From Rhodococcus sp. 105337 (lineage in GTDB: Bacteria > Actinomycetota > Actinomycetes > Mycobacteriales > Mycobacteriaceae), in assembly GCF_012844225.1 (NCBI RefSeq), contig NZ_JABAGQ010000001.1:434001-498000 (forward strand): 64,000 nucleotides of DNA, written 5' to 3'. Below are positions 4,564-31,744 of the stretch, in pieces. Each line of letters starts with the position of its first letter. Within the stretch, counting starts at the first letter, position 1. The position numbers were made by a program, and so were the translations under genes. The notes below the pieces were generated by a model that saw only the letters and a program-made list of their open reading frames with translations, was not told the origin of the DNA and did not search any database.

Positions 4564-4607
4564 GCTCGCGGCCCTGGTGGACACACCACCAGGGCCGCGA
4601 GCTTTTT
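4564..4607. terminator. Strong intrinsic terminator between etfD and the esterase gene
   Basis: A perfect 17-bp GC-rich stem (4564-4580 and 4586-4602) with an ACACA loop is followed by TTTTT on the plus strand. It serves etfD and, being symmetrical, can also stop leftward transcription from the NRPS operon, whose last gene ends at 4650. Confidence 0.93.
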
Positions 4608-4649: not shown

Positions 4650-5648
4650 TCAGTTCCCGAGCTCGAGTGACGCCGCCAATTGCGGCCACGAACGGTGGAG
4701 TTCGTCCTCCCAGTAACCCCATGAGTGCGTGCCGTTCTCACGGAAGTGGAAGGTGGCGGGGATATCGAGTTCTTCCAGCCGCTCGGCCAGCCGTTGGGTA
4801 CAGACGTTCGTTGCCGCCTCGATCACCCCCCCGATCACGACCTGCTCGTGCAGCGGCGGTGCCTGAGGGGTGCGTGGCAGTGCCGGGTTCTCGTGCGGTC
4901 CGGGCAACCCGTTTCCGTTCGAGATGTAGAGAGAGAGCCCCCGCAGCCCTTCGGCGTTGACCGTCGGGTCGTGCCGGGCCCACTCGTCGCCGTCGTACGG
5001 ACCCCACATGTTGCGAGCGTCGGTCTCGCCCATCACTTCGACGACGGTCCGGAGATACGCCTGGCCCACAGGATCGCTGGTTTGGGCACAGCCGCTGTAC
5101 GAGGCGACTCCTCGGTACAGTCCCGGCGCCTGGATCGCGAGGTCGAGCACCGACGTGCCTGCCATCGACAGTCCCGCGATTGCATTGACACCCGTGGTAC
5201 CGAGTGCGCGGTCGACCGCCGGGGGAAGCTCCTGGGTCAGAAACGTCTCCCACTTCGCGATACCCACGACCGGATCGTCACGCATCCAATCCGTGTAGTA
5301 GGTGAACATGCCCTGTGCGGGAATCACGACGTTCACGTTCTTGTCCGCGAGGAAGTCGAGGATCTTCGTCTGATTGAGCCAGTTCGCGCCGTCTTCGCCA
5401 CCGCCGGCCCCGTTCAGCAGGTACAGCGTCGGGCGCGGCACGCTGGTGTCGGCCGGGCGGATCAGCTGGAACGGGATCTCCCGGCCCATCGACTCCGAGT
5501 AGACGTGCATGTCGTAGCGGTTTCCTTCGACCTGCTCGACCCGCACCTCTTCCCCGCCGGGCAAGGCGGTGGCGGGTGCCCCCGCCAGGATGAGCGCCGA
5601 AGCCGCAATGACGCAGGCGCTACTTCGCCGCAGAACGTTCATGTTCAT
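4650..5648 (-). CDS. Secreted mycolyltransferase (antigen 85)-like esterase
   Basis: A 332-residue alpha/beta hydrolase of the esterase/mycolyltransferase family. A signal peptide (about residues 1-28, ending APATA-LPGG) places it outside the membrane. The nucleophile elbow is GLSMAG (Ser near 161) and the C-terminal catalytic His is in THSWGYW (near 310), as in antigen 85 proteins, which move mycolic acids onto trehalose or arabinogalactan. The ATG at 5648 is chosen because it overlaps the NRPS stop as ATGA, which points to translational coupling and to a role tied to the NRPS product. It could act as a mycolyltransferase, or as an esterase or acyltransferase on a lipopeptide; the substrate cannot be read from the sequence. 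Confidence 0.88.
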   Translation of the reverse strand: MNMNVLRRSSACVIAASALILAGAPATALPGGEEVRVEQVEGNRYDMHVYSESMGREIPFQLIRPADTSVPRPTLYLLNGAGGGEDGANWLNQTKILDFLADKNVNVVIPAQGMFTYYTDWMRDDPVVGIAKWETFLTQELPPAVDRALGTTGVNAIAGLSMAGTSVLDLAIQAPGLYRGVASYSGCAQTSDPVGQAYLRTVVEVMGETDARNMWGPYDGDEWARHDPTVNAEGLRGLSLYISNGNGLPGPHENPALPRTPQAPPLHEQVVIGGVIEAATNVCTQRLAERLEELDIPATFHFRENGTHSWGYWEDELHRSWPQLAASLELGN

Positions 5649-8600
5649 CTTGCTTGTTCGCCCTGTCGGTCGTGGTCGGATGGAGTTGCGAAGACAGTAC
5701 GCAGGCGAGGCCCCAGCACGGCAAGTGCCTCGGTCGAAGTCATGCGCCAGTGGGTGACCGGCACTGAATGGTCATGGATTCGCCCGCTCACGGCATCGGC
5801 CCAGCCTGCCGCCCCGCGGCTGTCGTCCTCGGCTGCGGTGAAATACACGACGTCACCGTCGAACCGTCCGGGCCGGTGACCGGCCGCCAGGACAACGTTG
5901 TGCCGGGCCGCGTCCATCAGCTGCCGCACGAGACGTTCGGTGTCCTCGGCCGGAGTGCCGGTGACGTCGGCGACCACCCGGACGATCCCGGCGAGATCCG
6001 CCGGTCCGTCACCGTCTCCGACAACGCCGAGTCCTGCGAGCAGGTCGCTCATCGGCATTTCCGGCTCCTCGGACGCGTCGGTGTCGGTGTCGGTGTCCGC
6101 GAAACTGTCGAGCATCACCAGTGTTTCCACTGCGCTGCCGGCGGCCTGGAGGTGCACCGCCATGGCGTGCGCGATGACACCTCCCAGCGACCATCCGAGC
6201 AGCCGGTACGGGCCCTCCGGCTGGATCCGGCGTATCTCGTCGACGTAGAGCGCCGCCAGGTCGTCGAGGGATTCAGGCCGGTCCTCGAGCGGGGTCTGCA
6301 CTCCGTACACGGGTACGGACGGGTCGATCTCCTGCGCGAGAGCGGTGTAGCACCACGACAATCCGACGATCGGATGCACGCAGAACACCGGGGGACGGTC
6401 GCCCTCCGCACGGATCGGGAGCAGCGTTCCGAACTCCGGACCGGACTCCCCGCCCTCGGCGATCTTCCGAGCCAGCGCTTCCACCGTCGAATGCGAGAAC
6501 AACGACGGCAACGGGACCGCGACGCCCAGCGCGTCGCGCAACTGCGCGACGAGCCTGGTCGCGACCAGGGAAGTGCCACCGAGCGCGAAGAAGTCGTCGT
6601 CCGCCCCCACCTGTGCGACACCGAGAATATCGGAGAAGGCGTCGGCCACAGCACGTTCGGTGTCGCCCGACGGGCGCCGGAACTCGCGTGCCCAAACCTC
6701 GGGCTGTCGCAGCGCTTTCCGATCGACCTTCCCGTTGGGTGTCGTCGGCAGCGCATCGAGCACGACGAACTGCGCCGGCACCATGTACGACGGCAGCACC
6801 CGGCCCAGTGTCTCCCGCAGTCGCTGCGTATCGAGTTCACCGGTGGGCACGACGTAACCGACGAGTTGTTCCGGCCACGCCACCACTACCCCGGCCGCAA
6901 CATCCTCGTGTGCGCGCAGCACCGAGTCGATTTCCCCGAGTTCGATCCGCTGGCCCCGCAGCTTGACCTGCATGTCGTTGCGGCCTACGTATTCGAGTTC
7001 GTGATGTGCGTTCCACCGCACCAGATCTCCCGTGCGGTACATCCTCGTCCCCGCACCGTCGAACGGGTTCGCCACGAACCTGTCGGCCGTCAGGTGTGCG
7101 CGTCCCGCATAGCCGCGGGCCAACTGGACACCCGAGAGATAAAGCTCGCCCACGACTCCCACCGGCACGGGATGCAGACGTGTGTCGAGCACCAGGGCAC
7201 CGGTGTTCCGAACGGGTGTACCGATGGGGACGCGCCCACCGCCGGAATCGGGATCGCTTCGGCGGTGCGTGGCCTGCATCGTCGTTTCGGTCGGGCCGTA
7301 CAGGTTGTGCACCCCGCACCCGAGCATCTTCCGCGCGCGGTCGGCCGTCGCACCCGACAGGGCCTCACCGCCGGCGAATACCAGCCGCAACGACGGAGTG
7401 GGCTCCTCCAGCACGTCGAGCACCGCGTCGAGCACGACCGGCACGAACTGCGCCACGGAGACCCCGAAATCCACCAGCGCACGCGCGAGGTACTGCGGGT
7501 CGCGGTGACCGTCCGGTGCCGCGACGACCATCCGCGCTCCACTGTGCAAGGGCCAGAACAGCTCCCACACCGATGCGTCGAACGTCAGCGGAGTCTTGAG
7601 CAGAACGGTGTCGGCAGCATCGGCGCCGAACTCCTCCTGCAACCAGTCCAGCTGGTTCACAGCCGACGCATGCGAGACCGCCACACCCTTCGGGCGCCCC
7701 GTCGAGCCCGACGTGAACAGCACGTACGCCGTGTTGTCCGGGCGCAGTGGACCCCGTCGCTCGGCATCCGAGATCGGCCCGTCCGGTACACCGCTCGCAT
7801 CGAATGTGCCGATATCGAACACCGTCCGATCCGTGCCCAGGTGGTGGCGCGAATCCGACAACACCAGTATCGGATCGGCGATCTCGAACACGTGGGAGAT
7901 CCGCTCGGCCGGTTGCCCGGGGTCGACGGGCACGTAGGCACCACCGGCGGCGACCACCGCGTGGACCGCGATCACCGCGTCGATCGATCGCTCCATCGCG
8001 ATGGCAACGTTCGTCTCCGGGCCCACACCCAGCGAAATAAGATGCCGGGCAAGCGTGTTGACTCTCGAAGCGAATCCCGCGTAGGAGTACGAAGTGCCTT
8101 CGACGGCGACGGCGACGGCGAGCGGCGTCGCCGCGGCCTGCGCGGCCGACCGATCCGGCAGGGTGGCGCCGGCCGGGTCGGTGCGCACCGCGGGGAGGCC
8201 CATCTCGTGTAGGGCCGCACGCTCCCGCGGCGCGAGCCATTCCAGATCGCCGACGGGAGTTTCGGGATCGCGCACTGCTGCGGTGAGGGTGCGGACGAAC
8301 CGGTCGGCGAATCCCGCGACGGTGGAAGCGTCGAAGAGGTCCGTGGCGTAGGTCCACGTCAGGTGGATACCGTCCGGAGTGCCGCCCTCCGAGAATGCTT
8401 CGTGCGCGGTGACCTGGAGATCGACCATCGCCTGGTTCAGATCGGCCTCGACGGGTTCGATGCGGACGCCACCGAGACGGAAATCGACGGGCTGCATGTT
8501 CTGCAGTGTCAGCATCACCTGGAAGAGCGGGTTACGCGCCTGCGAACGGGCCGGTGCGAGAACCTCGACGAGGCGCTCGAACGGCACGTCGGCGTGCGCG

Positions 8601-11600
8601 AACGCCTGCAGATCCGTTTCCCGCACCGAGCGGAGCAGGTCCGCGAACGACCGGCCCGGGTCGATGTCGGTACGCAGGACCAGCGTGTTGACGAACATCC
8701 CGATCAGATCGTCGAGTTCGGCTTCACCACGACCGGCAATCGGCGTACCGAGCGCGATGTCGGAGGTGCCGCTGAGCCGGGCGAGAGCGGACGCCAGGGC
8801 GCTGTGCAGCACCATGAAGAGCGTGGCGTGGTGTGTCCGCGCGAGCCCGAGCAGACCTCGGTGGAGCGACGCGTCGAGACCGACCGTGTGCGACGCACCC
8901 CGATGGGACGCCACCTGGGGACGCGGCCGATCCCAGGGCAATTCGAGCTGGTCCGGCAGCGACGCCAAAGCCTCGCTCCAGTACGAGATCTGCTTCGACA
9001 CCACGCTGTCCGGGTCGTCCTCGGAGCCGAGGATCTGCCGCTGCCAGAGGGTGTAGTCCGCGTACTGCACCGGCAGCGGAGCCCACGTGGGCGGCTGACC
9101 TCCGACGCGCGACGCGTACGCCGTCATCACATCCCGGGTGAGCGGTCCCATCGAGAATCCGTCACCCGCGATGTGGTGCACCACGAAGACCAGGATGTAT
9201 TCCTCCGGCCCGGCGCGGAACACCCGCACTCGTACCGGCACCTCCGCCGTCACGTCGAACCCCGCCGAGATCAATTCTCCGACGACGGCGAACACGTCGT
9301 CCGGATCGACCGGAACAGGCGTCGGATCGGCGTCCACCTCGGACAACGGCACGACCCGCTGGATACCCGCGCCGTCGGCCTCCGGGTACACGGTGCGCAG
9401 GATGTCGTGCCGCAGCAGCAGGTCCTCGACCGCTGCCTTCAGTGCTGCGTGGTCCAGGTCGCCCGACAACCGGAGCGCGACCGGGATGTTGTAGGTCGCG
9501 GCGCCGGGGTCGAACCGGTTGAGGAACCACATCCGCTGCTGCGCGAGCGACAGCGGAATGCGAGCGGGACGCTCCTGCACGACCAGCGCCGGGAGCGCTA
9601 CCCGTCCCATGTACTCCTGCGCTGCCGCGGCGAGCGCACCCACCGTGGGCTGTTCGAACAGGACGCGGAGGGGGATGTCCGCTCCGAGTTCCGACCCGAT
9701 CCGCGACATGACCCGCGTGGCGATCAGGGAGTTGCCGCCGAGGGCGAAGAAGTCGTCGTCGAGCCCGACCCGGTCGGCGCCGAGCAGTTCGGCGTAGACC
9801 GAGGCGACGGTCTGCTGGACCGCGTTTTCCGGTGCGCGGAATGCTCGCGTCTCGAAAGCCGGGACCGGCAGCGCTTTCCGGTCGAGTTTGCCGTTCGCGG
9901 TGATCGGCAGTGTGTCGAGCACGAGGATCTGCGCGGGCACCATGTAGGACGGCAGTTCGTCGGCGATCCGGTTGCGGAGCAGGTGCGTGTCGGCGGTATT
10001 GCCTTCGGTGGGGACGACGTAGCCGATGAGCCGGTCGCCGGTGCGGGCGTCGTTGTGCACCAGCACGACAGCCTGCGCGACCTCGTCGGTGCGGGTGAGG
10101 ACGGCTTCGATTTCACCGAGTTCGATGCGCAGGCCCCGCACCTGCACCTGGGCGTCGCGGCGGCCGACGAAGTCGAGCTCGCCAACGGCCGTACGCCGCA
10201 CCAGGTCTCCGGTGCGGTACATGAGCCCACCGGTGTAGGGGTTGGCGACGAAGCGGGACGCGGTCAGCTCGGGCCGGCGGTGGTAGCCGCGGGCCAGTCC
10301 GGCACCGGACAGGTACAACTCGCCGACGACACCGTCGGGCACGGGGTGCAGGCGGTCGTCGAGGACGACGGCCCCCGCACCGCGGATCGGCGCGCCGATG
10401 GTGATGACGTCGCCCGCACTCAGCGGCGCGGTCTCCGTGATGATGATGGTGGTTTCGGTGGGGCCGTAGCAGTTGACGAACCGGCACACGGAGCCGAACT
10501 TGGCAACCAGTTCGGGAGGGCACACGTCGCCGCCGACCATGACCGCTTCGAGGTCGGGCAGGTCGTCGGGTGTGACGGTACCGAGCGCGGCGGGCGCGGT
10601 GAGGATGTGCGTAACACGTTCTCGCCGCAGCAGATCCGACAGTTCGGCGCCACCGACGATCTCCGGCGGCGCGACGATCATCGTGGCACCGACGGAGAAC
10701 GCGGCGATCTGCTCGAACACCGAGGCGTCGAAGCTCGACGACGAGAACCGGAGCATCCTCGACGCGGAGCTCAGACCGAGTCCGGGGCGGTGTTCGCCGG
10801 TGAAGGCCGCCAGCCCGCGGTGCGTGACGACGACACCCTTCGGGGTGCCGGTCGATCCGGACGTGTAGATCATGTAGGCGGCGGACCCGGCCGCGGTCGT
10901 CCGCCGGATCGGCGCGTCGGAGTACCCGGCGGCGTCGTCGACGCGGAGCCACGAGATGTCGGTCGACGGTGCGTCACCGTGTGTGAGCCCGAGAAGCGCA
11001 CCGGAATCCGACAGCAGGTACGTGATGCGCGCGGCGGGCAGCGCGGGGTCGACCGGTACGAACGCCGCACCGGTCTTGGCCACGGCCCATAGTGCGATGA
11101 TCGCGTCGACCGACCGCGGGAACGACAGCGCCACGAACGTTTCCGGCGTTGCGCCGTGCTCGGCGAGCATGCGGGCGAGACGGTTGGACGCACGATCCAG
11201 CTCGGTGTACGTCAGGTGCCTGGCCCCGTCGGTGGCCGCGATGCCGTCCGGGTTCGCGGCGACACCCCCCGCGAAGATCTCCGGCAGCACGCGTACCGGC
11301 ACATCCGCGGGCACGGCGTGCCGGAGCGCACGGGCGGCATCGGCGTCCTCCATGAGCGGCACCTCGCCCACCGGCACGGCGGGGTTCTCGGTCACGGCGT
11401 CCAGCAGGCGCAGCCATCGCCGCGTCAAGGATTCCGCGGTACCGGCATCGAACAGGTCGGTCGCGTAGGTCAGCGACCCGGCGAGGCCGCCGTCGTCGTC
11501 GCGGAGGGTGAATTCGAGGTCCACCTTCGCGACATCGATACCCGGCTCGACGGGTTCGATCTCGAGGCCGGGTAGTTCGAGGACACCCGTGCCCTGGTTC

Positions 11601-14600
11601 TGGAGCGACAGTGTCACCTGGAACAGCGGCGCGTGGCTTTGCGAGCGGACAGGGTCGACGGCGTCGACGATCTGCTCGAACGGCACGTCGGCGTGCCCGA
11701 ACGCGGCGAGGTCGGCGTCGCGGGTCTGCTCGAGGGTCCGATCGAAGCCGGCGGCCGGGTCGAACCGGGTGCGCAGCACGAGGGTGTTGACGAACATGCC
11801 GACGACGTCGTCGAGCGCTGCCTCCCCGCGACCGGCGACGGGGGTGCCGACGCTGACGTCGTCGGTGTTGCCGAGCCGCGCGAGCAGCACGGACAGGGCG
11901 GCGTGGAGTGCCATGAAGCGCGTGGCGCCGTGTGCCCGGGCGAGGGCGTCGAGTGCGTCCACGGTGTCTGCACCGATGCCGAAGTCGGTGCGTGCGCCGC
12001 GTTGCGAGGCGACCGCCGGGCGGGGCCGGTCGGCGGGCACCTCGAGCACGGCCGGGACGTCGTCGAGTGCCTCGGTCCAGTAGGCGAGCTGACGCGCTGC
12101 AAGCGATCCGGCGTCGGCGGGGTCGCCCAGCACGGCGCGCTGCCACACCGCGAAATCGGCGTACTGCACAGCGAGCGGCGCCCACTGCGGAGCGGCGCCG
12201 GCGAGCCGGGCGCTGTAGGCGACGAGGATGTCGCGGGCCAGCGGCACGGTGGAGGCGCCGTCGGCGGCGATGTGGTGCACGACCACCACGAGCACGTGCT
12301 CGTCGGCTGAAGCCTGGAGCAGGGCGCCGCGAATCGGGACCTCGGTCGTGACGTCGAATCCGCGCGAGAGCACGGCGAGGATCTCGTCACGCTCGGTATC
12401 GGCGGTGAGCGGGCGCGGCGTCAGGTTCACCGGGGCGTCGTCGAGGACCACCTGGTGTGGACCGTCGGCGTCGGGGAAGACCGTCCGCAGGGTCTCGTGC
12501 CGCTGCACGACGTCGTGCACCGCGGCGCGCAGCGCGTCGTGGTCGAGTCGGCCGCGCAGTCGCACGGCGACGGGGACGTTGTAGACCGGCGACGTGGGAT
12601 CGAACCGGTTGATCAGCCACATCCGCTGCTGCGCCGGCGAGAGCGGAATGCGGTCGGGGCGGGGCCCGGCGACGAGCGGCGGGCGCGTGCCCGGCCCACT
12701 GTCACCGACGACGGCCGCCAGTGCGGCCACGGTCGGGTTCTCGAACACCGCGCGCACCCCGAGCGACGCGTCGAGTCGCGCAACCACACGGGTCGCCGAG
12801 AGGGAGTTACCGCCGAGGGCGAAGAAGTCGTCGTGCGCACCTGCCTGCTCGAGACCGAGCACGTCGGCGTACACCGCCGCGACCCGCCTTTCGGCGTCGG
12901 TACGCGGTGCGACGAACTGTGCGGCGGCGAAGACGGGTTCGGGCAGTGCCCGCAGATCGACCTTGCCCGCACCGGTGAGGGGGAAGGCGTCGACGACGGT
13001 GATCGCCGAGGGCACCATGTAGTCGGGCAGGGCGCGGGCAGCGTGAGCGGTCACCTCGGCGGCGACGATCGCGTGACCGGGTGCCGGCACCACGTAGGCC
13101 ACCACGGCGCCGGTTGCGGCGTGGGGCACGCTCACCGCAGCGTCGACGGACGGATGCCCGGACAGGACGGCGTCGATTTCGGACAGTTCGATTCGATGGC
13201 CGCGAACCTTCACCTGGAAGTCGTTGCGTCCCAGGTATTCCAGTGTCCCGTCCGCGGTCTTCCGGACGCGGTCGCCCGTTCGGTACATGAGTCCGCCACC
13301 GACGGGGTCGGCGACGAACCGCGTTGCGGTGAGCTCGGCGCGATCGTGGTAACCCCGCGCGAGCCCCGCACCGGATACGTACAGTTCGCCGGGCACTCCC
13401 GTGGGCGCCGGTTGCAGCCGGTCGTCGAGAACCATCGCGGACGTGCCGAGCACGGCACGGCCGATGCGCACCGGTTCTCCCGGCGTCATCGGACCGAAAT
13501 GCGTTGCCATGATGGTCGACTCGGTGGGACCGTAGGCGTTGAACATCGCCCGGCCCGGCGCCCATCGTGCCACCAGCGACGGTTCGCATGCCTCACCGCC
13601 GACGACGACCACCCGGACGTGCGGCAGCGTCTCGGGATCGAGTGTCGCCAGTGCCGCGGGCGTGAGGAAGAGGTGGGTCACGCCGGTGTCGGTGAGCACC
13701 GTCCCGAGTTCGGTGCCCCCGTAGATGCCGGTGGGGACGAGCACGAGGGTCGCTCCCCCACCGACCGCCATCAGCAGTTCGAGCAGCGACGCGTCGAAGC
13801 TGGGTGACGCGAATGCCGCGACGCGGTCACCGGGCCGCACGCCGTAGTGGCCTTGCTGCTCGGCGACGAATGCGGCGAGGCCGCGGTGGGTGACGACCAC
13901 GCCTTTGGGCACGCCTGTGGAACCGGAGGTGTAGATCAGGTAGGCGGGGTGGTCGGGGTGCGGTTCGCGCGCAGGGACGGGCCGGTCGTCGCCGGTCTGC
14001 GCGGCAGCGTCGAGCCACCGCACCTCGTCGGGCAGGGCCTTGCGGTGTGCGTCGGTGGTGAGACCGAGGCGCACACCCGAGTCGGTGAGCATGTGCTCGA
14101 TGCGAGCCGCCGGATAGGTCGGATCGACGGGCAGGAATGCGGCGCCGGTTCGGGCGACCGCCCAGACTGCGAGTACCGATTCCACCGAACGTTCCACGGC
14201 GACGGCAACGACCGTCTCGGGGCCTGCGCCGGCCCCGATCAGCGCGTGTGCGAGCGCTGAGGAGCGGCGGTCGAGTTCGCCGTAGGTGACGATGCGCGTC
14301 CCGGAGACGAGCGCGGGTGCGTCGGGATCGGCGGCAGCCTCGGCAAGTAGCTGCGGGAGCGTGCGTACGCCGACGGATTCGGGGCGGCGCAGCAGTTCGT
14401 CGTGCTCGGCGTGCGAGAGCAGGTCGAGGGAGCCGACGGAGGCATCCGGAGCTGCCACGGCCGACTCCAGCACCCGCACGTAGCGCTCGACCATCATTGC
14501 GGCGGTGGTGTCGTCGAACAGGTCGCGGGCGAAGGTCAGCGTGACGGTCGCGTGCCGCTCGTGCTCGGTAACGGCGAATTCGAGGTCGAACTTGGCGATC

Positions 14601-17600: not shown

Positions 17601-20600
17601 TCCACGGTGGCGCGGTCGAACAGGTCGGTGCGGTAGCGCACGCTCAGGCGCAACCTCGGTTCGAGGATCGCCATGACGGTGAGCGGGTAGTGCGTGGCGT
17701 CGCGGGCATCGATACCCGTGACGCGCATGCCGGCGAAGTCGGTGGTCTCGTCGAAACCGGCGCGGTCGACGGGGTACGACTCGAAGACGGTGAGGGTGTC
17801 GAACAGGGTGCCGGCACCGATGTTCTGCTGGATGCTGCCCAGACCCACGTGGTGATGGTCGAGCATCGACACCTGCGCGTCCTGCACGCTGCGCAGCACG
17901 TCGGCGACGGTGTCCCCGGGCTCGAACTCGACGCGCACCGGCACCGTGTTGATGAACAGGCCCAGCATGTTCTCCACACCGGGCAGTTCTGCGGGGCGGC
18001 CGGACACGGTCGCGCCGAAGACCACATCCGAACGCGTGAGCATCCGTTCCAGGACGAGCGCCCACGCGACCTGCACGACCGTGTTGACGGTGGTCCCGGT
18101 CTCACGCGACTGCTCGGTGAGCGCGGTGAGCAACTCGTCGGGCAGATCGACGTCGATCTCGCCGGGGTTGTCCTCGAAGGACGTCTCGGCGTTCGGCGCG
18201 ACGAGCGTCGGCTCGGTAACGCCGGCGAGCAACTCGCTCCACGCCTGGAGCGACCGGTCCGTGTCCTGCTCGCGCCACCATCGGAGATAGTCCCGGTACG
18301 GCGCGGGCTCGGGCAGCGCGTCCCGGGATATGTAGTGGGTGAGGATCTCTCGCACGAGAAGGGGCATCGACCACCCGTCGAGCACGAGGTGGTGGTTGGT
18401 CAGTACGAGCGTCGCGCGGTCGTCGGCGGTGCGGACGAGTACTGCCCGCAGCAGGGGCGGCCGGGCGGGGTCGAAGGGTGTTCCGCGCTCGGAGTCGAGT
18501 ATCTCGGCGGCTCCACCCGCACCGGCCCGCACCTCGCGCCACGGCACGGCGACGCGATCGAGCACGAGTTGCACCGGGTCCCCGTTCTCGTCGTGGACGA
18601 ACGCGGTGCGCAGGCCGGCGTGCCGGGCGACGACCGCGTCGACGGCGCTGCGCAGCCGGTCGCTGTCCACGGCACCGGCCAGTTCGAGGGTCAGTTGCGC
18701 GACGTAGACGTCGAGCGAGCCGGCGGCGAGCCGGGCGTGGAACAGCAACCCTGCCTGGAGCGGTGGGAGGGGCCAGATGTCGCGCACGGCCGGGTACTCG
18801 GCTTCCCACTGCTCGATCTGGCGCTGGCCCACGGCGACGAGCGGAACGTCGGACGGGGTCAGGCCACCCGCGTCGGGACGATCGAGGTGCGCGGCGAGAC
18901 CGGTGAGGGCGCTGCGCCACAGTTCGGCCAGTTCGGCGACGTCCTCGGAGGAGACCAGGCGCGGCACGTACGCGAACGACGCGGTGAGGTGTGGTCCGTC
19001 GGGACCGTCGACGACCATGGCGTTGATGTCGATCGCCGCTGCGGCGGCGAGCCCGGAGGTCCGGTTCGGATCGAGATCGAGGTCGTCGGGTACCCAGCCG
19101 ATCTCGCGGATCTCGTCGGGGATGTGACCCGAGGTGAGCCGGCCGAGGTAGTTGAACGAGAGCTGGGATGCGGGCAGATCCGCGAGCACCGTTCCGGTCT
19201 CGTCGTCGAGGTACCGCAGGATGCCGTAGCCGATACCGTGGTTCGGCACGGCGGCAAGCTGTTCCTTCACCGCTTTGACCGCGGCGGCCGCTGCGGATCC
19301 GCCGGCCAGGGCGTCGTCGAGGTCGCCGGTGACGGCGAGACGCACCGGGTAGGCACTGGTGAACCAGCCGACGGTGCGCGCAAGGTCTGCCGGGTCCGGC
19401 GTATCGAGATCGCGCCCGTGGCCTTCGAGGGTCAGCAGCAGCGAGCGCTCGGCACCGTCGTCCCAGCGTGCGGCCGCCAGCGCGAGGGCGGTGAGCAACC
19501 CGTCGGCGGCGCCGCTGCCGTAGAGCGCGGGCAGCCGGGTCAGGACGGCGTCGGTGACCGCCGGGTCGAGTGCGACGTCGATGCGCCGGGTGGCGGCGAG
19601 GGTGTCGACGTCCGGGTCGAGGGTGCCGATCCCGCGCAACGGACGGGCCCCGGTCAGCGTGCGCTGCCAGTAGACGAGTTCGTCGGCGAACGCGCCGTCG
19701 CGAGCGGCGTCGTGCAGGGCGTGCGCCCAGCGGCGGAAGGACGTACCGATCGGCGGGAGAACAGGCTCCTGGGCCGCCGCGACCTGCATCCAGGCCTGTC
19801 CGAGGTCGGGGAGCAGCACCCGCCAGGACACCCCGTCGACGACGAGGTGGTGCGCGACGAGCAGGAGTTTGCCCTGTGTATCGGCCGCGTCCACGTCGAA
19901 CCACACGGCCTGCAGCGTCACACCCGCGGCAGGATCGAGCGCCGCTGCGGCACTGTCGCATCGGGACGCGATCAGATCCTCGATGTCGTCGAGGTCCGCG
20001 ACGGGAACGCGCGTGACGAGGGTTCCGGGCTCGGCGGCGCCGGCACGGACCTCCCAGGTGTCGCCGCGCATCACCGAGCGCAGCATGTCGTGGCGGTCGA
20101 GCACGGCACCGAGTGCTGCGGACAGGTGTTCGGCGGTGAGGCCGGCGGGGGTGGTGACGAGTACCGCCTGCGCGAACGTGGAGTAGTCGCCGCGCCGGAG
20201 CATGTCGTGCACGATGGGCGTCAGCGGAATCTCGCCGGCACCGCCACCGGGCAGTTCTGCCATGACCGTGGTCGCCGACACCGCGGTGGCGACACGAGCC
20301 AGCGCGGCAATCGTCTTGTGCTCGAAAATCTGCCGTGCCGTGATGTGCAGCCCGACATCCTTGGCGCGGGCGGCGAACTGCATCGCCACGATGCTGTCGG
20401 CGCCGAGCGCGAACAGCGAATCGTCGACACCGACCCGTTCGACGTCGAGGAGCCCCACCGCGAGTTCGGCGAGTGCAATCTCCGAATCTGTCCGGGGCGC
20501 GCGGAATTCGGCCGACTCGAACCGTGGTGCCGGTAGGGCGGCGCGGTCGAGCTTGCCCGCGGGCGTCACCGGAATGTGGTCCAGTTCCATCAGCGCGGCG

Positions 20601-23362
20601 GGAATCATGTGCGACGGCAGCATCCGGCCGACGCCCTCGAGGAGCGTCGCTGCGTCGAAGAGGTGGTCCGATTCCATCCGCACGTACGAGATCGGCACGC
20701 TCGAGTGCCCGGTGTCGTGGACGACGGACGCCGCGTAGTCGACACCCGGTTGTTCGAGCAGTGCCGTGTCGATTTCACCGAGTTCGATGCGGAATCCGCG
20801 GATCTTCACCTGGAAGTCGGAGCGGCCCAGGAATTCGAGTTCGTGGTCGACGGTCCAGCGCACGTCGTCACCGGTGCGATAGAGGCGGCCACCGGGCTCG
20901 AACGGGTTGGCGACGAACCGGTCGGCGGTCTGTCCGGGCCGGGAGTGGTATCCCCGGGCCAGCGCAGGGCCCCCGAGATACAGCTCACCCACGAATCCCA
21001 CTGGGACGGGCCGCAATCTGCGGTCGAGGACCACGGCTTCGACACCGTCGAGCGGCCGCCCGATGGTGATCCGGTCACCCGAGTGCAGCGGGCTCCCCGC
21101 GGTGACCACGATGGTGGTTTCGGTCGGCCCGTAGCTGTTGGTGAACCGGCTGACGGCACCGAAACGCTCGACGAGGTCGGGGGTGCAGACGTCACCGCCC
21201 ACCACGACGGCGTCGAGAGCGTCGAGTCCGGTGGGGTCGACGGTGGTGAGCACGGTCGGCGCCGACACGATGTGGGTGACACGGCTGCTGCGCAACAGAT
21301 CGGCGAGATCCTGCCCGCCGAGGATGTGCGGCGGGGCGACCACCATCGCCGCGCCGGCGCTGAACGCCTGCAGCATCTCGAAGATCGATGCGTCGAAACT
21401 CGCCGACGAGAAACGCAACATCCTCGATTCGCGAGTGAGGCCGAGTTCCGGCCGAGCGTCGGCGTCGAACGCGGCGAGCCCGGAGTGGGTGACCACCACG
21501 CCCTTCGGTGTGCCGGTCGAACCGGAGGTGTAGATCATGTAGGCGGGATGCTCGGGCCTGGCCGCGACGACCGGCGGCGCATCCACAGCCGGATGCGCGT
21601 CGTCCGCGGCGAGCCAGCGCGGACCCGTGGGCAGGTGGGGTATCCGGTCCCGCGTGCTGATGCCGAGTCGCGCACCGGAGTCCCGGATCATGTACGCGAG
21701 ACGTTCCGCGGGCAGCGCCGGATCGATCGGCACGAACGCGGCGCCGGTCTTCGCCACTGCCCAGAGGGCGACCAGCGCTTCGACACTGCGTTCCATGCTC
21801 AGCACGACGAAAGTTTCGGGAACGGCGCCGGCGTCGGCGAGTACCCGGGCGAGCCGATCGGAGCGCTCGTCGAGGGCGCGGTAGGTCAGCGTCCGGTCGC
21901 CGTCGAGGACGGCGATGCCGTCGCGGTTGCGCCGCACCCCTTGCGCGAGAAGGTCCGGCAGCATCCGGACGGGGCGCGGCGGGCGGCCGCGGAACGGGAC
22001 GAGCGTGTCCCGCTCGTCCTCGTGGAGCACGTCGAGCGCGCCCACGGTGCCGTCGCATTCCGCGAAGTCGGCAAGGAACTCGATGAATCGGCTGTGGTGG
22101 GAGCGTAATTCGTCGATGGAGTACAGGTTCGGGTTGGCTTCGAGGTCGATGTGCGCCGGATCGCCGGGTTTGCTCGGGTAGATGTTGAGCGAGAGGTCTT
22201 CGACCGGTCCCGTGCTGACCACGTGGAGACGGCCGACGAGATCGCCGAGACGGATCTCCGTTCCGAACATCATGATGTTGACGGCGGGACCGAAGAAGCC
22301 GCGATCGGCTCCGCCCCTCCCGGTGTCGCGCCGCATGTCCTCGTGCCGGTACCGCTGATGACGCAGCGCTCCGGTGAGTTCGAGTTGCACGCGGGACGTG
22401 ATGTCGGGAGCGGTGTCCGCGGGGTCCACGCCCACTCGGATCGGCACGACGTTGGAGACCATGCCCCCGGATCGTCGCAACTTGACGGTCGTGCGTGCCG
22501 AGACCGGCAGGCTGAGCACGATGTCGGATTCACCTGTGACCCGGGCGAGGAACGCAGCGAAGGCAGCGATGACCACGCTCGTGAAGGTGGCCTGCTCGTC
22601 ACGGGCGATGACCCGTTCGATGGACGCCGCCACCTCGTCGGGCAGCGGCGCGCTGTAGCGGACCGGATTGGGGCCGACCGGCGCCGCCCGGCCGGAGAGG
22701 CCGATCGGGTGCGGCAGGTCGCGGACCCGCGCGGCCCAGTACTCCCGATCGGTCTCGAACCGGCCCGATTCGCGGTAGCGGTTCTCGTCGTCGACGATCT
22801 CGTGGAGCGCGCTGACGGGGAACGACGCGGGTTCGCGGCCCTCCTTGACGGCGGTGTACCGCTCGGCGATCCGGTTGACGAAGGTTGTGGCGCCGAATCC
22901 GTCCAGCGCGACGTGGTGGATCCGGGTGTAGACGAAGTACCGGGCCTCGGCGATGCGCAGAATCGCGCACACGATGAGCCGGTCCTCGAGCATGTCCAGC
23001 GGGGTGCGGTACTCGGCCCGCATCCACGCGATCGCAGCGGCCTCGGGATCGGGGCGCTCACGCAGGTCGAGGACGGTGGCCCGATCGTTGAGATCGGGAT
23101 CGATCACCTGGTAGGGCTGCCCGTCGTGCTCGAACAACCGGAGCATTCCGGTGCCGATTTCGCGACCGGTGGCCGCACCGGCGTCCGCGAACGCCTCGAC
23201 GTCGAGATCACCGTGGACGTCGATGTACTGGGCAATGGTGAGCGGAATGTCGCCGAGCAGATGCTGGGCGAACCAGATCCCGCGCTGCGCCGTCGAGAGT
23301 GGGAAGCCCACCTGAGGCTCGTCGTCGACGAGCACCGGTCCACGCGCATACTGCTGTTCCAC
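5645..23362 (-). CDS. Five-module non-ribosomal peptide synthetase with terminal thioesterase
   Basis: A 5905-residue single-chain NRPS. Domain order with rough residues: C1 20-450 (HHVALDG), A1 470-960, T1 near 990 (GADSI), E 1050-1480 (HHLVVDGVSWR, FNYLGR); C2 1510-1940, A2 1970-2450, T2 near 2487; C3 2545-2970, A3 2990-3480, T3 near 3519; C4 3570-3990, A4 4020-4500, T4 near 4544; C5 4600-5030, A5 5060-5550, T5 near 5595; TE 5650-5895 (GWSLGG). All carrier serines and HHxxxDG motifs are intact. Specificity codes read by eye: A1 DAFVVGSIVK, A2 DVWHFSLVDK (the EntF serine code), A3 DALFVGAIMK, A4 DAFLMGCIIK, A5 DAWQFGLMQK (nearest to glutamine codes I recall). C1 resembles the EntF/DhbF starter condensation domain, so the chain is probably N-acylated. 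Predicted product: acyl-D-X1-Ser-X3-X4-X5 with hydrophobic X1, X3 and X4. The start is GTG with GGGAG 4 nt upstream. No MbtH-like gene, phosphopantetheinyl transferase or exporter is nearby. Confidence 0.95.
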   Translation of the reverse strand: MEQQYARGPVLVDDEPQVGFPLSTAQRGIWFAQHLLGDIPLTIAQYIDVHGDLDVEAFADAGAATGREIGTGMLRLFEHDGQPYQVIDPDLNDRATVLDLRERPDPEAAAIAWMRAEYRTPLDMLEDRLIVCAILRIAEARYFVYTRIHHVALDGFGATTFVNRIAERYTAVKEGREPASFPVSALHEIVDDENRYRESGRFETDREYWAARVRDLPHPIGLSGRAAPVGPNPVRYSAPLPDEVAASIERVIARDEQATFTSVVIAAFAAFLARVTGESDIVLSLPVSARTTVKLRRSGGMVSNVVPIRVGVDPADTAPDITSRVQLELTGALRHQRYRHEDMRRDTGRGGADRGFFGPAVNIMMFGTEIRLGDLVGRLHVVSTGPVEDLSLNIYPSKPGDPAHIDLEANPNLYSIDELRSHHSRFIEFLADFAECDGTVGALDVLHEDERDTLVPFRGRPPRPVRMLPDLLAQGVRRNRDGIAVLDGDRTLTYRALDERSDRLARVLADAGAVPETFVVLSMERSVEALVALWAVAKTGAAFVPIDPALPAERLAYMIRDSGARLGISTRDRIPHLPTGPRWLAADDAHPAVDAPPVVAARPEHPAYMIYTSGSTGTPKGVVVTHSGLAAFDADARPELGLTRESRMLRFSSASFDASIFEMLQAFSAGAAMVVAPPHILGGQDLADLLRSSRVTHIVSAPTVLTTVDPTGLDALDAVVVGGDVCTPDLVERFGAVSRFTNSYGPTETTIVVTAGSPLHSGDRITIGRPLDGVEAVVLDRRLRPVPVGFVGELYLGGPALARGYHSRPGQTADRFVANPFEPGGRLYRTGDDVRWTVDHELEFLGRSDFQVKIRGFRIELGEIDTALLEQPGVDYAASVVHDTGHSSVPISYVRMESDHLFDAATLLEGVGRMLPSHMIPAALMELDHIPVTPAGKLDRAALPAPRFESAEFRAPRTDSEIALAELAVGLLDVERVGVDDSLFALGADSIVAMQFAARAKDVGLHITARQIFEHKTIAALARVATAVSATTVMAELPGGGAGEIPLTPIVHDMLRRGDYSTFAQAVLVTTPAGLTAEHLSAALGAVLDRHDMLRSVMRGDTWEVRAGAAEPGTLVTRVPVADLDDIEDLIASRCDSAAAALDPAAGVTLQAVWFDVDAADTQGKLLLVAHHLVVDGVSWRVLLPDLGQAWMQVAAAQEPVLPPIGTSFRRWAHALHDAARDGAFADELVYWQRTLTGARPLRGIGTLDPDVDTLAATRRIDVALDPAVTDAVLTRLPALYGSGAADGLLTALALAAARWDDGAERSLLLTLEGHGRDLDTPDPADLARTVGWFTSAYPVRLAVTGDLDDALAGGSAAAAAVKAVKEQLAAVPNHGIGYGILRYLDDETGTVLADLPASQLSFNYLGRLTSGHIPDEIREIGWVPDDLDLDPNRTSGLAAAAAIDINAMVVDGPDGPHLTASFAYVPRLVSSEDVAELAELWRSALTGLAAHLDRPDAGGLTPSDVPLVAVGQRQIEQWEAEYPAVRDIWPLPPLQAGLLFHARLAAGSLDVYVAQLTLELAGAVDSDRLRSAVDAVVARHAGLRTAFVHDENGDPVQLVLDRVAVPWREVRAGAGGAAEILDSERGTPFDPARPPLLRAVLVRTADDRATLVLTNHHLVLDGWSMPLLVREILTHYISRDALPEPAPYRDYLRWWREQDTDRSLQAWSELLAGVTEPTLVAPNAETSFEDNPGEIDVDLPDELLTALTEQSRETGTTVNTVVQVAWALVLERMLTRSDVVFGATVSGRPAELPGVENMLGLFINTVPVRVEFEPGDTVADVLRSVQDAQVSMLDHHHVGLGSIQQNIGAGTLFDTLTVFESYPVDRAGFDETTDFAGMRVTGIDARDATHYPLTVMAILEPRLRLSVRYRTDLFDRATVDRIARRLVGVLETAATGPDTHVGDVDVFLPGERDTVAGFERGPDRDLPPTTLVDLLAQKAQRTPDTRAVLVEGAPALPYSEFASRVNRLARALVADGIGPGDLVGVAMPRSLDQFTAIHAVVTAGAAYVPIDPEQPASRTAHVLDTAAPARVLSALPDTAGFSDAPLTDLDRRAPLHPDDLAYVLFTSGSTGRPKGVAISHRSIVNRLLWMQDTYPLTADDVVLQKTPATFDVSVWELFWPLLTGASVVLASPDGHRDPRYLSRVIDEYGVTTLHFVPSMLDVFLAGADLGRCGSMRQVFTSGEALPATTVARFAESLGVPLHNLYGPTEAAVDVTAHPTVAGENPVPIGAPVWNTTVRVLDSRLRPVPVGVEGELYLGGVQLARGYHAAPGLTAARFVADPSGPARLYRTGDVVRWRADGVLEYVGRSDFQVKLRGQRIELGEIESALLDHDAVAQAVVALHRDHAAGEHLVAYVVGAVDSEAVLAHAAARLPRHMVPTVAMVLDALPVTSNGKLDRKALPAPEFGSGTEYVAPATATEETVAAIVADVLGRDGLGATANFFDLGGNSLTATRLLARLDDTFDTRLQIRDLFDNATVAGLSGLIDGQQDRQTGPPLVAGPRPEHIPLSPAQARMWFVNRFDPASGAYNVAVALRLTGTLDIDALRAAVTDIVDRHETLRTRYPDTGDGPRQEILPAAEVIDALTLDADALHGTLDEWLLEVVARGFDVTREIPLALNIVREDADRHVLVLVVHHIAIDGWSMQALARDLVAAYGARSAGSVPAWEPLPVGYADYALWQQGLLGSTDDPDSVAARQLAFWRDALADAPEVLDLRADRRRPAVPSFRGGTVTVDVPAPVYGRAAELARAHDASLFMVLHTALAVLLSRTGGTYDVTVGTPVAGRGHRDLDDVVGMFVNTLPLRTRFDASFSFAAALTAVRDTDLAAYSHADLPFEQLVEALAPARSTSHQPLFQTVLALDVPQPGAVTLPGLDIEVLPVDFGIAKFDLEFAVTEHERHATVTLTFARDLFDDTTAAMMVERYVRVLESAVAAPDASVGSLDLLSHAEHDELLRRPESVGVRTLPQLLAEAAADPDAPALVSGTRIVTYGELDRRSSALAHALIGAGAGPETVVAVAVERSVESVLAVWAVARTGAAFLPVDPTYPAARIEHMLTDSGVRLGLTTDAHRKALPDEVRWLDAAAQTGDDRPVPAREPHPDHPAYLIYTSGSTGVPKGVVVTHRGLAAFVAEQQGHYGVRPGDRVAAFASPSFDASLLELLMAVGGGATLVLVPTGIYGGTELGTVLTDTGVTHLFLTPAALATLDPETLPHVRVVVVGGEACEPSLVARWAPGRAMFNAYGPTESTIMATHFGPMTPGEPVRIGRAVLGTSAMVLDDRLQPAPTGVPGELYVSGAGLARGYHDRAELTATRFVADPVGGGLMYRTGDRVRKTADGTLEYLGRNDFQVKVRGHRIELSEIDAVLSGHPSVDAAVSVPHAATGAVVAYVVPAPGHAIVAAEVTAHAARALPDYMVPSAITVVDAFPLTGAGKVDLRALPEPVFAAAQFVAPRTDAERRVAAVYADVLGLEQAGAHDDFFALGGNSLSATRVVARLDASLGVRAVFENPTVAALAAVVGDSGPGTRPPLVAGPRPDRIPLSPAQQRMWLINRFDPTSPVYNVPVAVRLRGRLDHDALRAAVHDVVQRHETLRTVFPDADGPHQVVLDDAPVNLTPRPLTADTERDEILAVLSRGFDVTTEVPIRGALLQASADEHVLVVVVHHIAADGASTVPLARDILVAYSARLAGAAPQWAPLAVQYADFAVWQRAVLGDPADAGSLAARQLAYWTEALDDVPAVLEVPADRPRPAVASQRGARTDFGIGADTVDALDALARAHGATRFMALHAALSVLLARLGNTDDVSVGTPVAGRGEAALDDVVGMFVNTLVLRTRFDPAAGFDRTLEQTRDADLAAFGHADVPFEQIVDAVDPVRSQSHAPLFQVTLSLQNQGTGVLELPGLEIEPVEPGIDVAKVDLEFTLRDDDGGLAGSLTYATDLFDAGTAESLTRRWLRLLDAVTENPAVPVGEVPLMEDADAARALRHAVPADVPVRVLPEIFAGGVAANPDGIAATDGARHLTYTELDRASNRLARMLAEHGATPETFVALSFPRSVDAIIALWAVAKTGAAFVPVDPALPAARITYLLSDSGALLGLTHGDAPSTDISWLRVDDAAGYSDAPIRRTTAAGSAAYMIYTSGSTGTPKGVVVTHRGLAAFTGEHRPGLGLSSASRMLRFSSSSFDASVFEQIAAFSVGATMIVAPPEIVGGAELSDLLRRERVTHILTAPAALGTVTPDDLPDLEAVMVGGDVCPPELVAKFGSVCRFVNCYGPTETTIIITETAPLSAGDVITIGAPIRGAGAVVLDDRLHPVPDGVVGELYLSGAGLARGYHRRPELTASRFVANPYTGGLMYRTGDLVRRTAVGELDFVGRRDAQVQVRGLRIELGEIEAVLTRTDEVAQAVVLVHNDARTGDRLIGYVVPTEGNTADTHLLRNRIADELPSYMVPAQILVLDTLPITANGKLDRKALPVPAFETRAFRAPENAVQQTVASVYAELLGADRVGLDDDFFALGGNSLIATRVMSRIGSELGADIPLRVLFEQPTVGALAAAAQEYMGRVALPALVVQERPARIPLSLAQQRMWFLNRFDPGAATYNIPVALRLSGDLDHAALKAAVEDLLLRHDILRTVYPEADGAGIQRVVPLSEVDADPTPVPVDPDDVFAVVGELISAGFDVTAEVPVRVRVFRAGPEEYILVFVVHHIAGDGFSMGPLTRDVMTAYASRVGGQPPTWAPLPVQYADYTLWQRQILGSEDDPDSVVSKQISYWSEALASLPDQLELPWDRPRPQVASHRGASHTVGLDASLHRGLLGLARTHHATLFMVLHSALASALARLSGTSDIALGTPIAGRGEAELDDLIGMFVNTLVLRTDIDPGRSFADLLRSVRETDLQAFAHADVPFERLVEVLAPARSQARNPLFQVMLTLQNMQPVDFRLGGVRIEPVEADLNQAMVDLQVTAHEAFSEGGTPDGIHLTWTYATDLFDASTVAGFADRFVRTLTAAVRDPETPVGDLEWLAPRERAALHEMGLPAVRTDPAGATLPDRSAAQAAATPLAVAVAVEGTSYSYAGFASRVNTLARHLISLGVGPETNVAIAMERSIDAVIAVHAVVAAGGAYVPVDPGQPAERISHVFEIADPILVLSDSRHHLGTDRTVFDIGTFDASGVPDGPISDAERRGPLRPDNTAYVLFTSGSTGRPKGVAVSHASAVNQLDWLQEEFGADAADTVLLKTPLTFDASVWELFWPLHSGARMVVAAPDGHRDPQYLARALVDFGVSVAQFVPVVLDAVLDVLEEPTPSLRLVFAGGEALSGATADRARKMLGCGVHNLYGPTETTMQATHRRSDPDSGGGRVPIGTPVRNTGALVLDTRLHPVPVGVVGELYLSGVQLARGYAGRAHLTADRFVANPFDGAGTRMYRTGDLVRWNAHHELEYVGRNDMQVKLRGQRIELGEIDSVLRAHEDVAAGVVVAWPEQLVGYVVPTGELDTQRLRETLGRVLPSYMVPAQFVVLDALPTTPNGKVDRKALRQPEVWAREFRRPSGDTERAVADAFSDILGVAQVGADDDFFALGGTSLVATRLVAQLRDALGVAVPLPSLFSHSTVEALARKIAEGGESGPEFGTLLPIRAEGDRPPVFCVHPIVGLSWCYTALAQEIDPSVPVYGVQTPLEDRPESLDDLAALYVDEIRRIQPEGPYRLLGWSLGGVIAHAMAVHLQAAGSAVETLVMLDSFADTDTDTDASEEPEMPMSDLLAGLGVVGDGDGPADLAGIVRVVADVTGTPAEDTERLVRQLMDAARHNVVLAAGHRPGRFDGDVVYFTAAEDDSRGAAGWADAVSGRIHDHSVPVTHWRMTSTEALAVLGPRLRTVFATPSDHDRQGEQAR

Positions 23363-23435
23363 TCGGCTCCCGACGCTGGTGAAAAAGATTCCGGATCGTT
23401 ATTCGGACAAGATCGTTCCGTAATATAGCTTCGCG

Positions 23436-24608
23436 TCAGTCCGAGAATCTGGCAAGGAGCAAATCTCGCTTCGGGGGGTGGATGTTGATGCGTGACAAAT
23501 CCCGGCCGTAATGCTCCAGCAACCGCTGATCCATGATCCGTCGCCAGAGCGGCGGGACCAGGGACAACACGATCAGGACCGCGTATCCGGCGGGAAGCTG
23601 AGGCGCGTCGGGCATGGAGCGCAGCGTCTGGTAGCGGCGCAGCGGGTTCGCGTGATGGTCGCTGTGCCGCTGGAGGTTGTAGAGGAAGACGTTCGAGCAG
23701 ACATGATTGCTGTTCCAGCTGTGCTCCGGAGCGACCCGTTCGTACCCGCCGCCGGGACGGCTCCGCCGCAGCAACCCGTAGTGCTCGATGTAGTTCGCGC
23801 CTTCGAGAAACATGATGGCAAGGGCTGCCTGCACTACCAGCCACGGTGCGATCGACCAGCCGAACACCGCGATGAGCGCCGCGTACAGCACTGTGCTCAT
23901 GAGCCAGGCACTGAGCACGTTGTTATGCCGCACATTCCACCACGAGAGGCCACGTCGCTTCAGCCGCGCGTTCTCGTACCGCACCGCCGAACCGAGACTG
24001 CCGAACACCGAACGCGGCAGGAATCGCCAGTACCCTTCACCGAAGCGTGCGGTCGCAGGATCCTCCGGTGTGGCAACCCTGATGTGGTGCCCGTGATTGT
24101 GCTCGACGTAGAAGTGGCCGTAGAAAGATTGGGCGAGCGCCACTTTCGCAAGGTTTCTTTCGATCGACGTGCGCTTGTGCCCGAGCTCGTGCGCTGCGTT
24201 GATGCCGACTCCGCCGACGATGCCCAGGGTCGCGGCCAGGGCGAACTTTTCGGCGCCGCCCATGGGCTGCGACACCCAGAGCCAGCAGCCGAAGACGAAC
24301 CCGGCGTACTGCAGCGGCAGGTAGAGGTACGTGCAGTACCGGTAGTACCGGTCGTTCTCGAGGGGTTTCATCACCTCGTCGGGCGGGTTGCCGGTGTCGA
24401 CCTTGGCAAGCGCATCGATCAGCGGGCAGATCACCGCGATGATGATGGCGCCGGTCGCCCAGAACACCCCGAGGTGGAAGTGCTGCACCAGAACGTAGGC
24501 GAGAAACGGGCTCAACGGGATCGCCAGTCCGTACAACCAGAGGTAGCGCTTCGGATCCCGCCATCGCGCACCCGAGCTTGCGCGCTCGGTGTCGCCCCCC
24601 ACGCTCAT
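23436..24608 (-). CDS. alkB: AlkB-type alkane 1-monooxygenase (membrane di-iron hydroxylase)
   Basis: A 390-residue integral-membrane hydroxylase that oxidises the terminal methyl group of alkanes, using electrons from rubredoxin. All AlkB signatures are present: HELGHK (140-145), EHNHGHH (169-175), NYIEHYG (272-278) and LQRHSDHHA (312-320), between predicted membrane helices. The ATG at 24608 is chosen for a GAGGTG ribosome site 3 nt upstream; an upstream in-frame start at 24662 has no such site. No rubredoxin, rubredoxin reductase or TetR (alkU) gene follows, unlike typical rhodococcal alkB operons. Instead, the NRPS starts 73 nt downstream on the same strand, so the two are probably cotranscribed. 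The substrate could be a free alkane or the fatty chain destined for the peptide. Confidence 0.92.
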   Translation of the reverse strand: MSVGGDTERASSGARWRDPKRYLWLYGLAIPLSPFLAYVLVQHFHLGVFWATGAIIIAVICPLIDALAKVDTGNPPDEVMKPLENDRYYRYCTYLYLPLQYAGFVFGCWLWVSQPMGGAEKFALAATLGIVGGVGINAAHELGHKRTSIERNLAKVALAQSFYGHFYVEHNHGHHIRVATPEDPATARFGEGYWRFLPRSVFGSLGSAVRYENARLKRRGLSWWNVRHNNVLSAWLMSTVLYAALIAVFGWSIAPWLVVQAALAIMFLEGANYIEHYGLLRRSRPGGGYERVAPEHSWNSNHVCSNVFLYNLQRHSDHHANPLRRYQTLRSMPDAPQLPAGYAVLIVLSLVPPLWRRIMDQRLLEHYGRDLSRINIHPPKRDLLLARFSD

Positions 24609-24805
24609 TCCCACCTCACACCGGTTCCGTCTCCGACGGCTTATCGAATCCCCACCGACCACAACGCGACTCGCACGCCGGATCGGCTACACAGTATCCA
24701 TGGGGCCAGATGTGCGGTGAGACCCGGATCGGCACCGGGAGCAGACACGGCGACGGCGCCGCACCCTGAGATGCGACGCCGCCGCTCGGTCAGCAGAGAT
24801 GCGCT

Positions 24806-25009
24806 TCAGATAGCGCGCACACCCTGGGCCTGCGGGCCCTTCTGACCCTGGCCGATCTCGAACTCGACGCGTGCTCCCTCGTCGAGCGACTTGAATCCCG
24901 AGCCCTGGATCTCGGAGTAATGAACGAAAACGTCCGCGCCCCCACCGTCCTGCTCGATGAATCCGAAGCCCTTTTCTGCGTTGAACCACTTGACAGTGCC
25001 CTGCGCCAT
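24806..25009 (-). CDS. cspA: Cold-shock protein (CspA family)
   Basis: A 67-residue single cold-shock domain: [14 protein letters not shown] carries RNP1, and DVFVHYSEI carries RNP2. It binds single-stranded RNA or DNA and acts as an RNA chaperone in the cytoplasm. Length and sequence match the family across the whole protein. The ATG has AGGAG at good spacing. A structured leader lies upstream. It ends about 200 nt before alkB starts on the same strand, so read-through into alkB is possible but not needed. Confidence 0.95.
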
Positions 25010-25029
25010 ACCACTTGCTCCTAATCTTC

Positions 25030-25052
25030 CCGTACGTCACCCCGACGTACGG
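25030..25052 (-). promoter_or_regulatory. Leader hairpin of the cold-shock gene
   Basis: A perfect 9-bp inverted repeat (25030-25038 and 25044-25052, 5-nt loop) lies just upstream of the ribosome site of cspA, in its untranslated leader. Structured leaders are usual in cold-shock mRNAs; a thermosensing role here is inference. Confidence 0.5.
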
Positions 25053-25174
25053 CCTTGCTGGAATCCCAATCATCGCACTTATCCGGACATTCGTCGCGGT
25101 GGATCCCGCCTTAATTCCGCGTGTCGGGAAAATGCGGATGAAATCGGTTTGCGGGACGGTGGCACCATAGAGGC

Positions 25175-31724: not shown

Positions 31725-31744
31725 CAGGCGGTCTCCCTCGTTGC

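Follow-up and report, generated by a model that had tools for sequence, protein, structure and literature searches.

A resident alkB5 gene and an adjacent NRPS–esterase cassette as two probable units at one Rhodococcus site

The alkB, nonribosomal peptide synthetase (NRPS) and esterase genes that follow one another in the window (the whole 64-kb stretch of DNA analysed here) are probably two units lying side by side: a resident alkB5 gene, and an NRPS–esterase cassette whose esterase would act on an acylated pentapeptide. The initial annotation had read the three genes as a single functional trio. In a sample of 18 genomes of the genus (G000–G017, the window's own included), an alkB5 orthologue was found in every genome at 71–100% identity. 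The window-type NRPS stood beside it in 11 and was absent beside it in 7, meaning that alkB and the NRPS are not rare neighbours within the genus and that the three genes are nevertheless not kept and lost together. The trio does not appear to be the unit, because alkB outlives the cassette, its gene backbone exists without the cassette, and alkB has a separate known function. To judge from the gene comparisons, the NRPS and esterase look like the unit, with alkB mainly a neighbour.

Gene layout and the identity of alkB

The coordinates were re-derived, and the proposed order of alkB, 73-nt gap, five-module NRPS, ATGA overlap, esterase and hairpin held throughout (Table 1). The ATG start at 24608 gives alkB its 390 aa; the longest frame starts from GTG 24662. 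The ATGA overlap joins the NRPS stop to the esterase start. The hairpin, read from 4602 to 4564, begins 47 nt past the esterase stop and is common to the convergent gene at 1205–4546 (+), with the better T-run on the + strand. This convergent iron-sulfur gene was seen in 15 of the 18 genus regions, those of G007, G010 and G017 ending too early. A sigma-70-like search of 23300–25200 found no site where 0.3 were expected, a consensus that says little for an actinobacterium. Two other gene groups were noted in the window. Exopolysaccharide-type genes (Wzz, Wzy_C, a polysaccharide synthesis protein, several glycosyltransferases, a sugar transferase and DUF4012) lie at 30123–44383, and a steroid- or aromatic-degradation set (a BphC-like dioxygenase, an IclR regulator, a short-chain dehydrogenase and a KshA-type Rieske oxygenase) at 51671–57255.

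Table 1. Features of the alkB–NRPS–esterase site, in window coordinates
Feature	Coordinates	Strand	Basis or remark
Aminotransferase, class I/II, divergent; part of the AlkB5 backbone	25175..26431	+	Also adjoins sister-genus alkB in 3/3
Cold-shock protein gene, 67 aa, upstream of alkB	24806..25009	-	PF00313; adjoins alkB5 in 18/18 genus genomes
alkB, fits published AlkB5 type, 390 aa	23436..24608	-	Pfam, motifs, PDB matches, context as in PMC11854999
alkB–NRPS gap, 73 nt	23363..23435	-	Sequence differs between clades of the genus
NRPS, five modules, 5905 aa, GTG start, terminal TE	5645..23362	-	Single frame, 5905 codons
Starter-type condensation domain, limits approximate	22013..23317	-	Best PDB matches
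Adenylation domain 2, limits approximate	16057..17437	-	Code DVWHFSLVDK
Adenylation domain 5, limits approximate	6727..8107	-	Code DAWQFGLMQK
TE domain, NRPS end	5648..6490	-	GWSLGG near 6196
MytC-like mycoloyltransferase-family esterase, 332 aa, predicted secreted (signal peptide by eye)	4650..5648	-	PF00756; triad S161/E277/H308
Hairpin, 17 pairs (14 G-C), bidirectional terminator-like	4564..4602	both	
4Fe-4S / CCG-domain gene, convergent; other border of the site	1205..4546	+	Pfam

AlkB belongs to Pfam FA_desaturase, and its best PDB matches, 8f6t and 8sbb, are both alkane 1-monooxygenases and run near full length. The four AlkB histidine/HYG motifs are complete in the window protein and in 18/18 genus genomes. 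Orthologues in the 17 other genus genomes are 71–93% identical, and the next matches, at 69–70%, come from another genus (301 family genomes drawn). With an aminotransferase and a cold-shock gene upstream and an NRPS downstream, the window gene fits the published AlkB5 type by motifs and context. One sentence of a 2025 paper states that AlkB5 is followed downstream by AbiEi or an NRPS, and the available text of that paper also gives this type as normally without rubredoxin genes (PMC11854999). No rubredoxin-like ORF was found by motif anywhere in the window, in line with the earlier remark that alkB lacks this usual companion. A second AlkB is present in 18/18 genus genomes, and a motif search placed a rubredoxin-like ORF immediately after the genome's second alkB. 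AlkB5, as a long-chain alkane hydroxylase, would have to borrow its rubredoxin from elsewhere in the genome.

A function for this type has been published. AlkB1 of Rhodococcus sp. CH91 is AlkB5 by assignment in PMC11854999. According to the part of PMC10304049 available, this AbiEi version has no flanking rubredoxin genes and serves growth on C16–C36 alkanes, which a knock-out and heterologous expression in Pseudomonas fluorescens showed; on such alkanes induction of the gene is roughly 2- to 3.5-fold. In the same source, R. coprophilus NCTC10994 is one of the strains listed as having an alkB region like that of CH91 (AbiEi downstream). NZ_BDAM01000010.1, titled R. coprophilus NBRC 100603, has an NRPS at the site; the two strains may be different species.

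The alkB5 site across the genus

A starter C domain (61–100% identity) lies directly behind alkB in eight genomes (G000, G002, G005, G009, G010, G011, G012 and G013, the G010 site being cut by the contig end), whereas in three (G001, G004, G017) one esterase gene comes between alkB and this domain. The distance from the alkB stop to the start of the match to this first C domain (C1) is 121–141 nt in eight genomes, and 1.4–1.6 kb, with the esterase gene in between, in G001, G004 and G017. Six genomes (G003, G006, G007, G008, G015, G016) have no such NRPS at the site, their best starter-C matches (47–50%) lying elsewhere. In these six an AbiEi-like gene comes next after alkB, behind an insertion sequence and front-cut in G006 and reversed in G016. 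G014 is rearranged: alkB is followed by an esterase gene, next come genes of exopolysaccharide type (by eye), and a shortened NRPS of related sequence (46% starter C, 57% TE) comes last. In 10/18 genomes (G004, G005, G006, G007, G008, G009, G013, G014, G015, G017), four of which are without the window-type NRPS, a further same-strand NRPS frame of 6,262–6,359 codons ends about 8–12 kb upstream of alkB; no such match was found near alkB in G000 and G002.

The far border of the cassette was located through AbiEi. This gene lies behind the esterase in six NRPS-bearing genomes (G004, G005, G009, G011, G012, G013). It was not found in the examined stretches of G000, G001, G002 and G014, one of which is the window's genome, so the AbiEi-side border is invisible in these four; the G010 and G017 sequences stop short of it. 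The AbiEi leaders of G004, G005 and G013 share 60–66 identical positions of 93–98 aligned bp with the empty sites of G003 and G015, and 36–41 of 45–55 bp with that of G008. This likeness exceeded all 500 shuffles in 9/9 comparisons. Since the leaders are alike with and without the cassette, the NRPS and esterase occupy the interval from the alkB stop to the AbiEi leader.

Two observations bear on the order of events. In another genus, g22 (G063, G108, G120), the aminotransferase, AlkB (69–70%) and the iron-sulfur gene are adjacent in 3/3 genomes, with AbiEi in 2/3; at E 1e-12 neither the starter C nor the TE, the esterase or the cold-shock protein had a match in these stretches. Within the genus, G006 still has 82 of the 85 bp that lie between alkB and the NRPS start in G005, followed by an IS4/5-type transposase where the NRPS would begin and then the front-cut AbiEi (L066, ~14700–16290). 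Judging from this remnant, the G006 site is a deletion scar. The sister-genus backbone without an NRPS and the G006 remnant followed by a transposase together argue for a later arrival of the NRPS and for its repeated loss. The groups {G005, G009, G013}, {G000, G002}, {G004, G017} and {G010, G011, G012} recur in both the starter-C and the alkB trees, which hold NRPS-bearing genomes only. Parsimony gave 6 changes, or 7 losses if the NRPS is ancestral, on a midpoint-rooted combined tree of two proteins in which G014 was scored absent despite its rearranged related NRPS. Separate recent gains of the NRPS are less likely, given the recurring groups in both trees and the G006 scar. The simplest history thus seems to be that the NRPS–esterase cassette entered between resident alkB5 and AbiEi in the genus ancestor; since then its NRPS would have come to range from 5 to 13 modules, and several lineages would have lost the cassette but kept alkB5.

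The NRPS and its esterase partner

By motifs the NRPS reads Cs-A-T-E / C-A-T / C-A-T / C-A-T / C-A-T-TE. The best PDB matches of its first C domain are 7c1k, 7c1h, 7c1p, ObiF1, CDA PSI and EntF, whose C domains we take to be of the starter class, acting on acyl or aryl starters; the starter-C type assigned earlier is borne out by these closest matches. Aryl-acid starters (EntF, ObiF1) belong to the same starter class as acyl ones. No acyl-CoA ligase was found among the subset of window ORFs scanned with Pfam. The codes of A domains 1–5 are DAFVVGSIVK, DVWHFSLVDK, DALFVGAIMK, DAFLMGCIIK and DAWQFGLMQK, the last letter being supplied by convention and firm assignments being made for exact Ser and Thr codes only. 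The module 2 code equals the classical serine code, and the module 5 code resembles that for glutamine.

The assembly line at this one site varies widely in length. In a single frame it has 5 modules (G000, G002), 6 (G004), 7 (G012), 8 (G011), 9 (G013), 11 (G005) or 13 (G009), the last with 13 carrier domains and a changed motif in the thirteenth A domain. The G001 NRPS is split over two frames, which together gave 6 A domains, and that of G017 has at least 5 modules up to the contig end. Open frames at the site are as long as 12,307 (G005), 14,398 (G009) and 10,177 (G013) codons, where the window has 5,905. All the site's NRPSs keep the starter C, first A code, E and TE, the first A code of G001 excepted; the later modules are variable, many of them of DAWQFGL type. 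The fixed site with its 5 to 13 modules is a natural series for the growth and shrinkage of NRPS assembly lines.

The best PDB match of the esterase is Cmt1 (MytC; 4H18, 8QHF) at E 2.5e-76, spanning residues 35–330 of 332, followed by PS1 (7.5e-42) and Ag85A (9e-28). Entries 4H18 and 8QHF are named MytC, with triad S189/E310/H341, in the available text of PMC11927696. These three residues align onto the triad listed in Table 1, giving the Ser-Glu-His triad of the mycoloyltransferase family.

Association of the two genes was counted within 2.5 kb behind the TE, with 90/90 thioesterase matches set against 133 esterase matches. The first 87 of the latter extend down to E 5e-94; the 46 weaker ones comprise 13 on a TE contig, the nearest 259 kb away, and 33 on no TE contig (lists read by eye). 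Of the 23 pairs counted, 21, spread over 14/18 genomes, have both genes on one strand, and 2 are on opposite strands (G008, G016). Ten of the same-strand pairs lie at the alkB site and 11 elsewhere; the G017 pair is on a contig other than that of alkB and is presumed continuous with the alkB-site NRPS. Uniform placement would give 0.1 same-strand pairs against the 21 observed, related genomes not being independent. Among seven genomes of other genera, read by eye, three had 4 same-strand pairs between them (G144 with two, G042 and G283 with one apiece), and 3 opposite-strand pairs were also seen (G144, G283, G063). Among the matches listed, none of these pairs is beside an AlkB match, and the NRPS relatives in the 7 genomes are not beside the best AlkB match. 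The suggested coupling of NRPS and esterase is seen again at sites other than that of alkB and outside the genus. The NRPS relative of G063 (59% starter C, 52% TE) is not followed by the esterase, which argues against a strict rule. Spacing varies as well: the esterase of G005, G009 and G013 shares just 48–50% identity and is separated from the NRPS by about 1 kb that carries a lipase gene on the other strand, and G001 has two genes in this interval. The lipase-like gene (secreted, class 2, opposite strand; Pfam on the G005 copy only) lies between NRPS and esterase in G005 (L083), G009 (L085), G013 (L088) and G001 (L079), or just behind the esterase in G011 (L086).

In the two-unit reading, the NRPS would place an acyl chain on a D-residue and then add Ser, two further residues and a Gln-like residue before the TE releases the peptide. 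The esterase, predicted to be exported, would most likely act on this peptide beyond the membrane through the acyl-transfer mechanism of a serine hydrolase, like MytC. MytC of Corynebacterium glutamicum mycoloylates polypeptide serines (PMC11927696, available text). The window enzyme could plausibly load mycolate, as presumed donor, onto the peptide serine, and the peptide would then be held in the mycomembrane; family resemblance and gene pairing are what suggest this mycoloylation. The serine code was found in module 2 of 6/11 NRPS-bearing genomes and not in G001, G005, G009 and G013, so the serine–mycolate idea does not fit all, and serine as a universal acceptor is not supported.

The esterase might instead be an ordinary hydrolase or a trehalose-mycolate enzyme, placed after the NRPS for regulation or self-protection. 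Members of the mycoloyltransferase family differ in acceptor, which sequence alone cannot tell, and lipase genes also lie in the cassette in some species. With 5 to 10 esterase paralogues per genus genome at E 1e-50, a trehalose-mycolate role is possible by sequence. (Two more MytC-like esterase genes, 58–59% identical to that of the window, lie in tandem at G000:C1:244638-246933.) However, the closest solved relative is MytC and not PS1 or Ag85, and the pairing recurs with different NRPSs, and we consider this explanation unlikely, though the strongest of the alternatives.

If the enzyme does act on the peptide, mycoloylation would extend from proteins to nonribosomal peptides, and the pairing would provide a genomic marker for such products. 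A wider proposal, which we put forward as speculative and doubtful, is that Rhodococcus and its relatives use a dedicated MytC-like enzyme to mycoloylate nonribosomal lipopeptides on Ser/Thr outside the cell, giving covalently mycolated mycomembrane components, and that one such synthetase has diversified at one chromosomal site into forms of 5 to 13 modules.

Links to alkB and comparison with known systems

A regulatory link between alkB and the NRPS through the tight gap is possible. Read-through from alkB into the NRPS may occur and would couple its expression to growth on alkanes. In the fuller form of this idea the cassette uses the alkane-induced alkB5 promoter to make a surface-active lipopeptide on alkanes, AlkB itself having no chemical role. 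The short distance from the alkB stop to the C1 match in eight genomes, the empty sigma-70-like search of the window's gap and the alkane induction of CH91 alkB5 (PMC10304049, available text) are consistent with this. On the other side, the gap sequence is not conserved between clades, and the 1.4–1.6 kb with an esterase gene separates alkB from the NRPS in G001, G004 and G017. Coupling of regulation as the whole explanation is rather improbable.

Very improbable is a single pathway in which AlkB makes or end-hydroxylates the acyl chain, the starter C attaches it and the esterase finishes the product: the shared strand, the 73-nt gap with no promoter-like site found and the adjacency in 11/18 genomes speak for it, but alkB5 persists without the NRPS in 7/18, the sister-genus backbone has none, intergenic DNA differs between clades with a second esterase intervening in three genomes, the NRPS relatives of 7 other-genus genomes lie elsewhere than the best AlkB match among the matches listed, and an AlkB5 that has no NRPS beside it supports growth on alkanes (PMC10304049, available text). 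AlkB as an acyl-chain enzyme was accordingly dropped as the leading reading on the presence/absence, sister-genus and published knock-out evidence.

The trio had also been thought to have no described counterpart. This holds in part: the alkB–NRPS adjacency is already in PMC11854999, and no mention of an esterase with it was found, that word being absent from the paper's main text. No word begins with 'esterase' or 'alkane' in the available text of PMC5550956, and neither word occurs in that of PMC11433410. In open-licence full texts, the NRPS/MytC-like mycoloyltransferase pairing was not found described, and neither a mycolyltransferase with an NRPS cluster in Rhodococcus nor AlkB-like enzymes in lipopeptide clusters gave a useful match. 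The alkB link, whose neighbourhood is already in print (PMC11854999), dissolves under comparison, and what remains is the recurrent NRPS/MytC-like pairing.

The two units resemble three known systems, as far as the available parts of the cited texts describe them. The alkB region is like that of AlkB5 of the R. rhodochrous clade (PMC11854999; CH91 AlkB1, PMC10304049) in its upstream aminotransferase and cold-shock genes, AbiEi or NRPS downstream, missing rubredoxin gene and four motifs; no difference from the published context was found, and the window is its NRPS version. Rhodococcal NRPSs mostly begin with a C-starter domain (PMC5550956), and the window NRPS, with its N-terminal starter C, is like those of the C-starter lipopeptide clusters described there. 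Unlike those clusters, the cassette here occupies one fixed site, varies from 5 to 13 modules and has a trailing MytC-like esterase. Finally, the esterase is like MytC (Cmt1) of C. glutamicum (PMC11927696) in its near full-length match and equal triad positions, but it is encoded directly after an NRPS, with stop and start overlapping.
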